Below, one piece after another: positions 4,231 to 9,733 of a stretch of 64,000 nucleotides of DNA. This DNA is from Sulfuricurvum sp. (GTDB lineage Bacteria; Campylobacterota; Campylobacteria; Campylobacterales; Sulfurimonadaceae), in contig NZ_JAUYFF010000016.1 of assembly GCF_030691015.1 (NCBI RefSeq), positions 1 to 64,000 of the forward strand. Direction: 5' to 3'. Each line of letters starts with the position of its first letter. The stretch's first letter is position 1. Both the position numbers and the translations under genes were made by a program. The notes beneath the pieces were generated by a model. That model ran no database searches. It was not told the DNA's origin and saw only the letters and a list, made by a program, of their open reading frames with translations.

Positions 4231-4236
4231 TCAATT

Positions 4237-4536
4237 ATGGCTACGAAACATGAACACTCGACACAATTAACTATTTTAGTAGAGCATCCGAAGCAGTATA
4301 ATGTTTTTTTGCTCAATGACGATTACACTTCCATGGATTTTGTGGTTGATATTTTAATGAAACTATTTCGTCGCAATTTTCAGGAAGCTCACGCGATTAT
4401 GATTGAAGTGCACCAGCGCGGTCGCGGTTTATGCGGTGTCTACCCCTATGAGGTGGCGGAAACGAAAGTACATCAAGTGGGGACATTGGCTCGTGAAAAC
4501 GGATTTCCCCTTAAAGCGGTAATGGAGGAAGCATAA
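4237..4536 (+). CDS. clpS: ClpS, adaptor of the ClpA protease
   Basis: A 99-residue adaptor that delivers substrates with N-terminal Leu, Phe, Tyr or Trp to ClpAP. The core is recognisable: YNVFLLNDDYTSMDFVVDIL, with the N-degron pocket Asn-Asp-Asp and Met, then the MIEVHQRGRGLCGVY segment carrying the conserved histidine and Gly-Val-Tyr, and AETKVHQV. The ATG at 4237 leaves a short disordered tail before the core, as in other ClpS proteins. An upstream in-frame start at 4141 lies inside the preceding gene and adds nothing family-like. clpA begins two bases after the stop. Confidence 0.93.
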   Translation: MATKHEHSTQLTILVEHPKQYNVFLLNDDYTSMDFVVDILMKLFRRNFQEAHAIMIEVHQRGRGLCGVYPYEVAETKVHQVGTLARENGFPLKAVMEEA

Positions 4537-4538
4537 TC

Positions 4539-6713
4539 ATGGTAAGTACAGAACTCAATGCGATTTTTCAAAAAGCGATTGCGTTTGCGAGGCATCAGCG
4601 TCATGAATATCTTACTATAGAACATGTTATGTTTTCTCTACTTAATTCGTCTGATGGAGAAGCGATTATACGCTCGTGCGGTGCAGATGTAGAGATTATT
4701 CGAGAATCGTTGGGTGCCTATCTGATGCAGACGATGGAACCGTTGCCCGATGAGCAGGAACCCTTTGAGACGGTCGCGTTGGCACGAATGATTGATGGGA
4801 TGATGCACCATGTGCGAAGTGCTCAAAAAGAGGCCGCTGATGTAGGTGATTTAATCGCTGCGGTATATGAAGAACATCACACCTATGCGTGTATGCTCCT
4901 CGAAGAGTACGGTATCAGCCGTGTTGATGTTCTCGAAGCGATATCCCATCGTGATATGGAGACGTCGCAAGATGATTCCAAAAATGAGGGGGCACTTCAA
5001 AAATACGCTATCAATCTCATTACGCAGGCACGCAAAGGGAAAATTGATCCCGTCATCGGCCGTGTCAACGAGATTGAGAGAGCGATTCAAACGTTGTGCC
5101 GTCGCAAGAAAAACAATCCTCTCCTCATCGGTGAACCGGGAGTCGGTAAAACAGCGATTGCGGAGGGGTTGGCATTGCGTATTGTGAGCGGTGATGTTCC
5201 CGCATTGCTCGAAGATGCGGAACTTTTTGCTTTGGATTTGGGCGCCATGTTAGCGGGAACCAAATATCGGGGCGATTTTGAGAAGCGGCTCAAAGCGGTG
5301 ATGGATGAAGCCACAGAGCATCCCAATGCAATCTTATTTATCGATGAAATACATACCATTGTCGGAGCAGGTGCAGTGGGTGGAGGGAGTATGGATGCTT
5401 CCAATCAGCTCAAACCGGCACTGGCCTCGGGTGCACTTAAATGTATGGGGGCAACTACCCACGTCGAATATCGAAGCGTCTTTGAAAAAGATCGTGCACT
5501 CAGCCGCCGTTTTGCCCGTATCGAGGTGGGTGAACCGAGTGATGAGGAGAGCTTTTTGATTCTCAAAGGGCTCCGTGCACGGTATGAAAAACATCACGGT
5601 GTCAAATATACCGATAAAGCATTGCGTTCTGCCGTCGAACTCTCTAAAAAATACATTACTGATCGCTTTTTGCCCGATGTTGCCATCGATCTGATCGATG
5701 AAGCGGGGGCGTCGTTTCATCTTAAAACCCATAAGCGTTCCACCATTACCCCTCATGATATCGAAGCGATTATTGCTAAAATGACGGGAATACCTGCTTC
5801 AAAAATGGGAACGGATGAACGTGAAAAACTCGCTTCTTTGGAATCCGATCTTAAAGCACTGGTCATCGGTCAAGATAGCGCGGTTTCAGAGGTCGTTAAG
5901 TCCATTAAACGCTCCTACGCAGGGCTCAGTGCCCCGCAAAAACCGATAGCCTCTTTTTTATTTTCCGGTCCTACCGGGGTAGGAAAAACGGAATTGGCTA
6001 AATCGTTGGCGGAAACGATGGGGATCTATTTTGAACGATTTGATATGTCCGAATATATGGAAAAACACGCCCTCAGTCGTCTCATCGGTGCCCCTCCGGG
6101 ATATGTGGGATTTGAGCAGGGGGGATTACTGGTCGAGACGGTACGAAAGCATCCGTATATGGTTCTATTACTGGATGAGATCGAAAAAGCTCATCCTGAT
6201 TTGATCAATGTACTGCTACAGGTGATGGACAGCGCAACCTTGACCGACAATACGGGGTTTAAAGCAAACTTTGCAAATGTCGTTCTTGTCATGACCTCCA
6301 ATATCGGAGCCAGTGAGCGGAGTGTAATGGGCTTCAATGCCGACAGCTCACTCTCCCATCATGAAGCCCTTAAATCGTTTTTTACCCCAGAGTTTCGCAA
6401 CCGTCTTGATGGGGTAATCGAATTTGCCGCATTGCCCCTTAGTGTAGTAGAGGGAATCGTCGATAAATTCATTCGACAACTCAATACACAGCTCAAGCCT
6501 AAGAAAGTGACGGTAACCCTGAGTGATAAAGCAAAAGGGTACATCGCGAAAATCGGATATGACAAAGCGATGGGAGCCCGACCCCTCTCACGTGTCATCT
6601 CCGATAAAATTAAAGACCCGCTGGTGGATGAGATGCTTTTCGGCCGTTTAGCCGGAGGGGGAAACGTGTCGGTTGATTATACCGATAGACTCATTTTTGA
6701 TTATGCTGAATGA
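4539..6713 (+). CDS. clpA: ClpA, ATP-dependent unfoldase of the Clp protease
   Basis: A 724-residue Hsp100 ATPase with a Clp N-domain (residues 1-140) and two AAA+ modules. Walker A motifs are GEPGVGKT (198-205) and GPTGVGKT (477-484); Walker B of module 1 is ILFIDE (265-270). There is no long ClpB-type middle coiled coil, so this is ClpA rather than ClpB or ClpC. The ClpP-docking loop, Ile-Gly-Leu in E. coli ClpA, appears to read Met-Gly-Phe in a SVMGFN segment just before FFTPEFRNRLDG. It unfolds substrates for ClpP, with specificity set by ClpS encoded immediately upstream. Its stop overlaps the aat start (ATGA). Confidence 0.94.
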   Translation: MVSTELNAIFQKAIAFARHQRHEYLTIEHVMFSLLNSSDGEAIIRSCGADVEIIRESLGAYLMQTMEPLPDEQEPFETVALARMIDGMMHHVRSAQKEAADVGDLIAAVYEEHHTYACMLLEEYGISRVDVLEAISHRDMETSQDDSKNEGALQKYAINLITQARKGKIDPVIGRVNEIERAIQTLCRRKKNNPLLIGEPGVGKTAIAEGLALRIVSGDVPALLEDAELFALDLGAMLAGTKYRGDFEKRLKAVMDEATEHPNAILFIDEIHTIVGAGAVGGGSMDASNQLKPALASGALKCMGATTHVEYRSVFEKDRALSRRFARIEVGEPSDEESFLILKGLRARYEKHHGVKYTDKALRSAVELSKKYITDRFLPDVAIDLIDEAGASFHLKTHKRSTITPHDIEAIIAKMTGIPASKMGTDEREKLASLESDLKALVIGQDSAVSEVVKSIKRSYAGLSAPQKPIASFLFSGPTGVGKTELAKSLAETMGIYFERFDMSEYMEKHALSRLIGAPPGYVGFEQGGLLVETVRKHPYMVLLLDEIEKAHPDLINVLLQVMDSATLTDNTGFKANFANVVLVMTSNIGASERSVMGFNADSSLSHHEALKSFFTPEFRNRLDGVIEFAALPLSVVEGIVDKFIRQLNTQLKPKKVTVTLSDKAKGYIAKIGYDKAMGARPLSRVISDKIKDPLVDEMLFGRLAGGGNVSVDYTDRLIFDYAE

Positions 6714-7393
6714 TCCCCAAGCTCACCCATCATCTCTCGTTTCCTAATCCTTTTCTTCATGCATCAGAGGAGGGAATTATCGCCTACGGCGGCGATCTCT
6801 CACCCTCACGCCTTATGTTGGCATATCGCTCTGGGATATTTCCGTGGTACAGTGCTAAAGATCCGATTCTCTGGTGGTCACCTGACCCGAGGCTCATTTT
6901 GGAGTTGGATGATTTTAAGCTTAGCCGATCATTACGAAAAAAGATGACTCAGTTTGAGATCCGTTTCGACAGTACATTCTCGGAGGTAATACACGAATGC
7001 GCTATCGCACCGCGCCGTGAGCAGAAGGGGAGTTGGATTGTCCCCGAGATGATCGAGGCATACGAAACCCTTCATGCCCTCGGATATGCGCATAGTGTTG
7101 AGGCGTACCAAAACGGTAGTTTGGTCGGTGGACTTTACGGTGTGAGCGTCGGGGGGGTATTTTGCGGTGAATCAATGTTTGCCAAAGTATCCGATGCCTC
7201 CAAGGTAGCCTTGGCCGTTTTAGTGGATTATCTTAGTGAATGGGGATTCGATTTCATCGATTGTCAGGTTCCGACGCCTCATTTAAAAAGTCTTGGGGCA
7301 AAAGAGGTATCAAGAGAGTTCTTTTTACGACGACTTGATAAAGCTGTGAATAGTAGTGCGGGTGAAAATCATTGGAAAATGAGAAATTTTTAA
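6710..7393 (+). CDS. aat: Leucyl/phenylalanyl-tRNA-protein transferase
   Basis: A 227-residue aminoacyl-transferase that adds Leu or Phe from charged tRNA to proteins with N-terminal Arg or Lys, creating the degron read by ClpS. Family motifs are clear: GDLSPSRLMLAYRSGIFPW near the N-terminus, WWSPDPRLIL, and GGLYGVSVGG followed by FCGESMF. Its ATG overlaps the clpA stop by four bases, so clpS-clpA-aat forms one translationally coupled N-degron module. A run of seven G at 7151-7157 lies inside the GVSVGG codons; the frame is intact. Confidence 0.94.
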   Translation: MIPKLTHHLSFPNPFLHASEEGIIAYGGDLSPSRLMLAYRSGIFPWYSAKDPILWWSPDPRLILELDDFKLSRSLRKKMTQFEIRFDSTFSEVIHECAIAPRREQKGSWIVPEMIEAYETLHALGYAHSVEAYQNGSLVGGLYGVSVGGVFCGESMFAKVSDASKVALAVLVDYLSEWGFDFIDCQVPTPHLKSLGAKEVSREFFLRRLDKAVNSSAGENHWKMRNF

Positions 7394-7442: not shown

Positions 7443-7889
7443 ATGAAAAAAGTTCTTATCAGTATCGCAGCTATTGCGGCACTCTCTACAGCAGGTTTTG
7501 CAACCGTAAACAGCCAAACAGGGTGCGGTCTCGGATCACAAATTATCAAAGATGACAGTTCAGCGGTAATGTTGGCGCTTCAAGCAACAACAAACAGCAC
7601 GTTGGGAAATCAAACGTTTGGTGTTACTTCGGGGACATCAGGATGTAAAAAAGCACAATTTGTTATGAACGAGCGTGCGGCAGAATTCGTTGCGTCGAAT
7701 ATGGATCAACTCTCTCGTGAGATCGCTATCGGTCAAGGTGAAAGTGTGTCCACTTTGGCAGAGCTTTTGAATGTTCAAGACAAAGCGGAATTTGCATCAG
7801 CACTTCAAGCAAACTACAACGCTATCTACACAAGCGAAAAAGCCGATATGGCTACGGTTCTCGATAACGTTTCTACTATCGCCGGATAA
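7443..7889 (+). CDS. DUF3015 family secreted protein
   Basis: A 148-residue protein with a classical signal peptide (MKKVLISIAA start, likely cleavage after residue 20 in GFA). The mature part opens with TGCGLGS, continues with ATTNSTLGNQTFGVTSGTSGC and ends in a helical region. This pattern is the DUF3015 family; its function is unknown. Two cysteines, C28 and C68, could form a disulfide. A strong AAAGGGG ribosome binding site suggests good expression. The DUF4105 envelope protein follows 20 bases downstream and is probably cotranscribed. No catalytic motif is visible. Confidence 0.82.
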   Translation: MKKVLISIAAIAALSTAGFATVNSQTGCGLGSQIIKDDSSAVMLALQATTNSTLGNQTFGVTSGTSGCKKAQFVMNERAAEFVASNMDQLSREIAIGQGESVSTLAELLNVQDKAEFASALQANYNAIYTSEKADMATVLDNVSTIAG

Positions 7890-7909
7890 TCACATTTTCA
7901 GAGCGCTTA

Positions 7910-9733
7910 GTGCGTTCTGAAATATTAAGGTTTTATTTGCCCTTTCTTTTTTTATTATGCGCACTGAGTTTAGCGGTTTATGCGACAACTACCGATGAAC
8001 TGATTGCACACGCTCATACGAAACATCTTTCCGAAGCACGCTATTGGCATCTGCTGATGCACTCCCCTGATAGTGAAAGTGAAATTGATGATCCCGCATT
8101 CTTTCTCTCATCGGAGGGGAAAACAGATCTCTCCTCCGAACTGGATGAAACGATTCGTCGTTTGAATGAAGATACTAACCGAAGCAATGAATCCGTCTTT
8201 TGCCGTTTTCCGGCTCGAAGAGTATGGCTGGAACACGAGCTTAACACCTCATTCGGAGAGGGGGAATGCCGTGAGTATGAAGCCCTTGTTGCGAAGATGG
8301 ATCCACAGAGTGTGACACTGGTATTTCCGAGTGCCCATATCAACTCTCCCGCATCGATGTTCGGGCATACTTTTTTACGGATCGATTCCAAAATGGAGTC
8401 TAAACTTATGTCGTATGCGATCAATTATGCAGCGCACACCGACGAGACCAATGGGTTATTATTTGCGTATAAGGGGCTATTCGGAGGCTATTATGGATTT
8501 TATTCGATGCTCCCCTATTATGAAAAACTCAAAGAGTATCGGGACTCCGAATCCCGAGATGTTTGGGAATACGATCTTAATTTAACGCCTGATGAGGTCA
8601 TGGCGATGGTACGCCATATCTGGGAATTACAGCGGATTAATTCGTGGTACTATTTTTTCGATGAGAATTGCTCCTATCATATGTTGTGGCTCACCGAAAT
8701 CGCCCGTCCTAGCGTTCACTTGAGGGATCATTTCTTCTATTATGTGATCCCTCCCGATACGGTACGCGCTTTCGAGGAAGAGGCTCTGGTAGAAGCAAAA
8801 CATTTTCGCCCCTCAAAACGGACTCAGCTACTTGCGTATGAACGTCATCTCTCTCCTCAAGGGATCTCGGCAGTGAAAGCTTTAAGTACTGCAAAGACAA
8901 ATGGTGCGGAACTCGATACGTTGACTCTCTCCAAACAAGAGCACCGTTTTGTACTTGAAGCGGCTGCGGAATTGGTTGAGTATCAATACATAGAGGGAAA
9001 AATGACTAAAGAGGTGTATGCCGCGCGCTACCATGAACTCCTCTCACGGCGTGCCGCTCTGGGGAAGGGGGAATTAGCTCCTGTAGCTCTTAAAGCTAAT
9101 CCTGATATTGCCCATCACTCTGCCCGTATAGCGGTCTCACAGGGGTGGTTTGAAGATCGTTCACCGCTACTGATTGGGTGGCGTCCGGCGTTTCATGACT
9201 TGAGTGAAGATGATACGGGACATCTATCCGGTGCTCAGATTGAATTTCTTGATACGTTGATCGGTGTGGATCATGATAAAGTGACGTTAGAGAAATTGAC
9301 GGTTCTTTCTCTCGCCTCTATTGCACCGGTAAGTCATTTTTTCACCCCTTTTTCATGGCGTATGAAAAGCGGTTGGGACCGTGAATACGGAGGGGATAGA
9401 GTTAGCTTTGTTACCCGTGTGGGAGCAGGGGCATCCCTCGGAGATGAAGGGATGTACGGGTATGTTCTGAGTGAGCCTGAGGTGAGATTCGGATTTAATG
9501 CCGATGTCGGATTAGGGTTCACTGCAGGGGCAGCGATCAACTGGGGAAGTCGGATGAAGAGCCATATTGAAGCAGGTCATATTTTCTATTTGGATGGTGA
9601 TCATCGAAGCCGTGTTATGGTTTCTCAAGGGTGGCAATGGAGTCCGCTGGGAGGAGTACAGTGCAGTTATGAAGGAATCGATCAAGATTACAGAGAAGAT
9701 CGCTTCAAACTTGGGGTGAACCTCTATTTTTAA
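7910..9733 (+). CDS. DUF4105 (Lnb N-terminal periplasmic domain) envelope protein with barrel-like C-terminus
   Basis: Up to 607 residues. The N-terminal hydrophobic stretch (about 9-26) ends at VYA-TTT and reads as a signal peptide. The DUF4105 core has FPSAHINSPASMFGHTFLRID (split near 139-159, with H143 and H153) and YFFDENCSYH (248-257, with C254). The C-terminal 200 residues are rich in alternating aromatic and Gly-rich strands and end in NLYF, the terminal-Phe signature of outer-membrane barrels. The start is uncertain: GTG at 7910 lies in the loop of a small hairpin without a ribosome binding site, while TTG at 7937 has AAGG six bases before it but a less basic signal peptide. Function is unknown. 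Confidence 0.78.
   Translation: MRSEILRFYLPFLFLLCALSLAVYATTTDELIAHAHTKHLSEARYWHLLMHSPDSESEIDDPAFFLSSEGKTDLSSELDETIRRLNEDTNRSNESVFCRFPARRVWLEHELNTSFGEGECREYEALVAKMDPQSVTLVFPSAHINSPASMFGHTFLRIDSKMESKLMSYAINYAAHTDETNGLLFAYKGLFGGYYGFYSMLPYYEKLKEYRDSESRDVWEYDLNLTPDEVMAMVRHIWELQRINSWYYFFDENCSYHMLWLTEIARPSVHLRDHFFYYVIPPDTVRAFEEEALVEAKHFRPSKRTQLLAYERHLSPQGISAVKALSTAKTNGAELDTLTLSKQEHRFVLEAAAELVEYQYIEGKMTKEVYAARYHELLSRRAALGKGELAPVALKANPDIAHHSARIAVSQGWFEDRSPLLIGWRPAFHDLSEDDTGHLSGAQIEFLDTLIGVDHDKVTLEKLTVLSLASIAPVSHFFTPFSWRMKSGWDREYGGDRVSFVTRVGAGASLGDEGMYGYVLSEPEVRFGFNADVGLGFTAGAAINWGSRMKSHIEAGHIFYLDGDHRSRVMVSQGWQWSPLGGVQCSYEGIDQDYREDRFKLGVNLYF

Follow-up and report, generated by a model that had tools for sequence, protein, structure and literature searches.

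A conserved gene pair in Sulfuricurvum encoding a secreted DUF3015 protein and a candidate outer-membrane acyl enzyme of the Lnb_N family

We analysed a 64,000-nt stretch of the genome of Sulfuricurvum sp. (contig NZ_JAUYFF010000016.1, positions 1 to 64,000; hereafter the window). Its forward strand carries a gene for a DUF3015 protein (7443..7889), an intercistronic RNA hairpin (7896..7922), and a gene for an Lnb_N (formerly DUF4105) barrel protein, referred to below as the enzyme (7937..9733). The open reading frame of the enzyme as listed (7910–9733) starts at GTG 7910. The sequence makes TTG 7937 the likely start instead, since AAGG is found 6 nt upstream of it and the proteins of relatives begin at this same position (LPF/LPI...). 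The 20-base intergenic gap reported in the initial annotation is thus correct for the listed frames and becomes 47 bases with the TTG start, which also lowers enzyme residue numbers by nine; the numbers used here (H153, C254, etc.) count from GTG 7910. The domain architecture, barrel, residue invariance, pairing, hairpin, and codon asymmetry described below were established by sequence comparison or predicted. Directly upstream of the pair, at positions 4234–7393, the window encodes in series clpS, clpA, and aat (leucyl/phenylalanyl-tRNA-protein transferase), an N-degron set that adjoins the pair in Sulfuricurvum, a linkage that does not persist elsewhere. The nearest loci include one that is 96% identical and labelled S. 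kujiense.

The product of the first gene, 148 amino acids long, is a clear member of its family (PF11220, 125 bits against a Pfam cut-off of 25). The gene has a strong Shine–Dalgarno sequence (AAAAAGGGG) and an ATG start. A signal peptide spans residues 1–20, with likely cleavage after ...STAGFA, and both C28 and C68 are present, in agreement with the initial description of a secreted DUF3015 protein of this length with these two cysteines. The protein has two parts, a Gly/Cys-rich module that carries both of these cysteines and a helical module at the C-terminus. Its predicted structure had a pLDDT of 42, too low for use, and sequence searches of the PDB with DUF3015 and with the enzyme gave no credible match for either. 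At three marine loci (L170:3610-3930, L180:3694-3909, and L188:3683-3910), a shortened DUF3015 keeps its start and helical C-terminal half, the Cys module is gone, and the enzyme alongside is intact and still has H153 and C254. The Cys pair is therefore dispensable in some loci, and these versions are a protein dissected by nature.

The enzyme comprises an N-terminal helical domain, DUF7843 (residues 38–109, 8021..8236), a permuted papain-like Lnb_N catalytic domain (residues 124–289, 8279..8776; PF13387, 190.8 bits against a gathering cut-off of 22.2), and DUF7840, a predicted 12-stranded outer-membrane beta-barrel (residues 396–606, 9095..9727; 161.9 bits). DUF7842 was matched at residues 299–384 with 19.5 bits, under its cut-off of 27. 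All 65 aligned relatives combine Lnb_N, DUF7840, and DUF7843. The candidate catalytic histidine, H153 in GHTFLR (codon 8366..8368), precedes the candidate nucleophile, C254 in DENCSYH (codon 8669..8671), and both were located in the enzyme reading frame as first described. Both residues were invariant in 34 of 34 diverse enzyme rows drawn from Campylobacterota and Gammaproteobacteria, paired and unpaired, as were G152, N253, and E239. C98, within DUF7843, was conserved in 33 of the 34 rows and gapped in the other; C120 was likewise found in all but one gapped row, a pattern that suggests a C98–C120 disulphide.

An AlphaFold2 model of the enzyme built with 65 sequences had a mean pLDDT of 87.1 and a pTM of 0.84, with lower values (66–84) over residues 140–190 and below 50 at 211–213. 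In the model, C254 is the first residue of a helix (254–265) and H153 lies just ahead of a strand (155–159), that is, a Cys at a helix start and a His beside a strand, as in permuted papain-like enzymes. Canonical NlpC/P60 enzymes cleave peptidoglycan, and together with the papain-like fold this would fit a peptidase or amidase acting on peptidoglycan or periplasmic proteins, with DUF3015 as its substrate or inhibitor. We consider such an activity quite improbable, as permuted members of known activity work on acyl bonds (PMC12994826) and the Pfam scan of the enzyme revealed no peptidoglycan-binding domain.

DUF4105 was placed among papain-like families in a 2023 classification (PMC10318531), and a 2026 study described it as one of five permuted NlpC/P60 clades, sister to the phospholipase Tox-Act1 (PMC12994826). 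The permuted, His-before-Cys arrangement proposed in the initial annotation is thus supported by both the invariant residues and the family assignment. According to the same study (PMC12994826, citing Armbruster et al. 2024), DUF4105 has been identified as the Bacteroides lipoprotein N-acyltransferase Lnb and forms its catalytic domain. The earlier remark that neither family has an assigned function consequently holds for DUF3015, which is without known function, and fails for DUF4105, which is the Lnb domain and has been renamed Lnb_N. Membership of the permuted group and identity with the Lnb domain make the chemistry suggested at the outset, that of a thiol hydrolase or acyltransferase, a good guess.

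The enzyme is not Lnb itself: against the NCBIfam Lnb equivalog NF051878 it scored 21.3 bits, with a cut-off of 550, although the weak match (E 1e-4, residues 149–255) does span both candidate catalytic residues. A profile comparison of the enzyme with YiiX/YaeF by hhalign was not significant (E 0.31). Replacement of Lnt, proposed for DUF4105 in PMC12994826, was rejected for Campylobacterota, as Lnt was found in all 249 Campylobacterota genomes surveyed (in 243 above the cut-off) and also in this genome. The same counts bear on the idea that the enzyme is an additional lipoprotein N-acyltransferase that would do the work of Lnb on lipoproteins in general from the outer membrane. Its catalytic domain does share a family with Lnb (PMC12994826), but with Lnt in every genome, a score so far under the Lnb model cut-off, and the obligate coupling to DUF3015 left unexplained, we think this a poor prospect.

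Twelve strands were modelled at residues 406–606, a confident barrel prediction, and the protein ends in Phe607; the terminal residue was Phe in 32 of 34 relatives. Structure searches with the model matched this part to known outer-membrane barrels, with Z of 10–15: KdgM (TMt 0.65) and NanC (0.63) with Foldseek, EstA (Z 14.8), Tsx (14.5), KdgM (14.0), LpxR (11.8), and OMPLA (11.5) with VIA-align, and also NalP. The fold-search matches reported for the enzyme by these two programs all cover the barrel. Both the barrel-like C-terminus ending in Phe and the outer-membrane anchoring predicted from it in the initial annotation find support here. In a barrel with an even number of strands both ends are periplasmic, so the Lnb_N catalytic domain should face the periplasm.

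OMPLA (PldA) and LpxR are lipid-acting enzymes built as 12-stranded outer-membrane barrels, and the present barrel resembles them among others. This resemblance is one reason to consider that the enzyme is an outer-membrane thiol phospholipase or phospholipid remodeller analogous to OMPLA/LpxR, with DUF3015 as an abundant lipid-binding carrier or inhibitor. Further reasons are that Tox-Act1, from the clade sister to DUF4105, is a phospholipase (PMC12994826) and that a Ysc84/SYLF-like gene adjoins the pair in 16 Sulfurimonas-type loci (21 bits, below the cut-off). The proteins encoded by these genes (L156:2774-3364 and 15 similar loci) are possibly lipid-binding. Nonetheless, the barrel resemblance is generic, and about 71% of genomes have OMPLA whether or not the pair is there, which argues against mutual replacement. 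Overall, we regard the phospholipase reading as rather unlikely. Complementarity between OMPLA and the pair was not seen (OMPLA in about 26 of 36 pair-bearing genomes vs 71% overall). The OMPLA family model PF02253 had no match in the Pfam scan of the enzyme and none in this genome.

The association of the two genes was assessed in 249 Campylobacterota genomes. DUF3015 was detected in 36 genomes and Lnb_N in 46, and all 36 were among the 46 (Fisher p about 1e-34, a value that overstates independence given the kinship of the genomes). Thirty-five of 38 DUF3015 genes in this set lay immediately upstream of Lnb_N on the same strand. Of the 80 loci in GTDB contigs that were closest to the one studied here, four were cut by a contig end, and DUF3015 was just upstream in all 76 others. 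Beyond the phylum, where the evidence comes from nine records of a plasmid collection that includes misfiled chromosomes, all eight gammaproteobacterial DUF3015 matches were located just upstream of DUF4105; the hosts were Acinetobacter, Pseudoalteromonas, Salinivibrio, and Photobacterium. The recurrent pairing of the two families expected at the outset was therefore found, and the full enzyme domain architecture was common to the three gammaproteobacterial loci tested. The flanking genes vary: clpA, aat, tal, and pilT are neighbours of the pair in Sulfuricurvum and a small number of relatives only, and the pair persists where this synteny breaks. On a phylogenetic tree, paired enzymes, gammaproteobacterial ones included, clustered together (two label changes vs a shuffled mean of 11.8), with their monophyly weakly resolved. 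A wider look at relatives yielded one decayed DUF3015 match whose genome (G047) has no Lnb_N. Some barrel Lnb_N proteins occur without DUF3015, which is therefore unnecessary for the fold class.

Several further loci showed variations on this organisation. In a further group of Campylobacterota Lnb_N proteins with the barrel ending (L207–L220 and L058), DUF3015 was a neighbour at L211 only. There, genome G191 has the pair a second time in divergent form (L211:600-2435), with a weak DUF3015 and, again, an intergenic hairpin. L223 encodes a minimal Lnb_N version of 302 aa, and L222 one without the barrel ending. On plasmid pJ9-3 of Acinetobacter baumannii (L191:3770-9195), a DUF4105 gene lies with blaADC between two ISAba1 copies, without DUF3015, and appears to travel as a passenger with the beta-lactamase. 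In Salinivibrio (L190:9218-10037), a linear amide C-N hydrolase is annotated as two adjacent overlapping pieces and is perhaps a frameshifted gene.

The hairpin in the window has an 11-bp stem and a 5-nt loop (folding energy -16.4 kcal/mol, z -4.4) and is terminator- or attenuator-like. It is positioned 6 nt past the DUF3015 stop codon and 14 nt ahead of the likely enzyme start, a spacing into which a new promoter cannot fit. For 72 distinct loci, the 60-nt segment that follows the DUF3015 stop had a median z of -3.9, and z was below -2 in 62 of them, vs 15 of 219 control gene junctions. Across these loci, the stem had a median of 11 pairs and, counted from the first base of the stop codon, started after about 11 nt; its position is conserved, and its sequence varies between loci. 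The hairpin recurred in other Campylobacterota families, Acinetobacter, and Photobacterium; Salinivibrio was without a clear one. Some copies (e.g., L059, L060, and Acinetobacter) resemble intrinsic terminators, complete with a T run, and the one in the window is without a clean T run. Such copies would suit a reading in which the genes are adjacent but functionally unconnected, with a plain terminator between them and a promoter for the enzyme inside DUF3015. That the pair outlasts all other synteny and spans phyla makes this very improbable.

Codon usage differed markedly between the two genes. With 15 ribosomal proteins of this genome as reference and 144 ORFs from six stretches as background, the codon adaptation index (CAI) of DUF3015 was 0.716 (97th percentile, next to rplY), vs 0.456 (21st percentile) for the enzyme. 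At 67 of 71 loci, DUF3015 had a lower effective codon number than the enzyme; in three gammaproteobacteria, its value fell under the range of equal-length enzyme pieces. The hairpin, codon adaptation, and effective codon number together point to DUF3015 being made far in excess of the enzyme. Differential mRNA decay inside operons is documented (e.g., PMC5927463). The term "partner", used for DUF3015 in the initial annotation, would understate this asymmetry, and an abundant client or carrier is probably a better description than a 1:1 subunit. The high codon adaptation of DUF3015 would also be expected of a chaperone or structural protein made in large amounts. The hairpin between the genes and the contrast in codon usage are new in this analysis. 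In the literature searched, which covered few subscription journals, we found no description of the Lnb_N association of DUF3015, its high-expression signals, or the hairpin, and the DUF3015 and Lnb_N barrel pair seems unstudied so far.

Taken together, we propose a low-copy, periplasm-facing outer-membrane Cys-His acyl enzyme with an abundant, dedicated DUF3015 client and an output set by an attenuator, a reading to which we assign about an even chance. The 12-stranded barrel would anchor the permuted papain-like Lnb_N domain, turned to the periplasm. The domain, in which C254 would be the nucleophile and H153 the base, would take an acyl group from an inner-leaflet phospholipid and pass it on, either to an acceptor or to water. 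DUF3015, secreted in large excess, would be the dedicated client of the enzyme, whether it accepts the acyl group, carries lipid, or is a protected substrate, and the intercistronic attenuator hairpin and the differing translation signals would set the unequal output. The steps that we infer are the acyl-thioester chemistry, a phospholipid as the donor, and the client role of DUF3015. A more specific version, in which the Lnb-related barrel enzyme moves a fatty acid from an inner-leaflet phospholipid onto DUF3015, as a form of periplasmic protein acylation apart from Lgt-LspA-Lnt, appears unlikely as it stands.

For the barrel-fused DUF4105 branch, found in genomes that already have Lnt, the obligate linkage to DUF3015, a secreted protein that seems to be highly expressed, supplies an obvious candidate substrate. 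Acylation of DUF3015, if true, would be an extra lipidation route alongside Lgt-LspA-Lnt. The pair occurs in tractable organisms, among them the non-pathogenic Sulfurimonas and Pseudoalteromonas.

Among known systems, Lnb of Bacteroides is likewise an envelope enzyme with an Lnb_N (DUF4105) domain and its conserved His and Cys, whereas the present protein differs in its outer-membrane barrel, its DUF3015 partner gene, and the presence of Lnt in its genomes. Tox-Act1, YiiX, LRAT, and TseH share the papain-like character and the His-before-Cys order and are lipid-acting (PMC12994826). In contrast to these soluble or toxin domains, the present domain is fused to a barrel and sits in housekeeping-like loci. 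OMPLA and LpxR have the same number of barrel strands (Z 11.5 and 11.8 to the present barrel, respectively), but they carry their active sites on the barrel, whereas the present protein has a separate predicted periplasmic domain with a candidate thiol centre.
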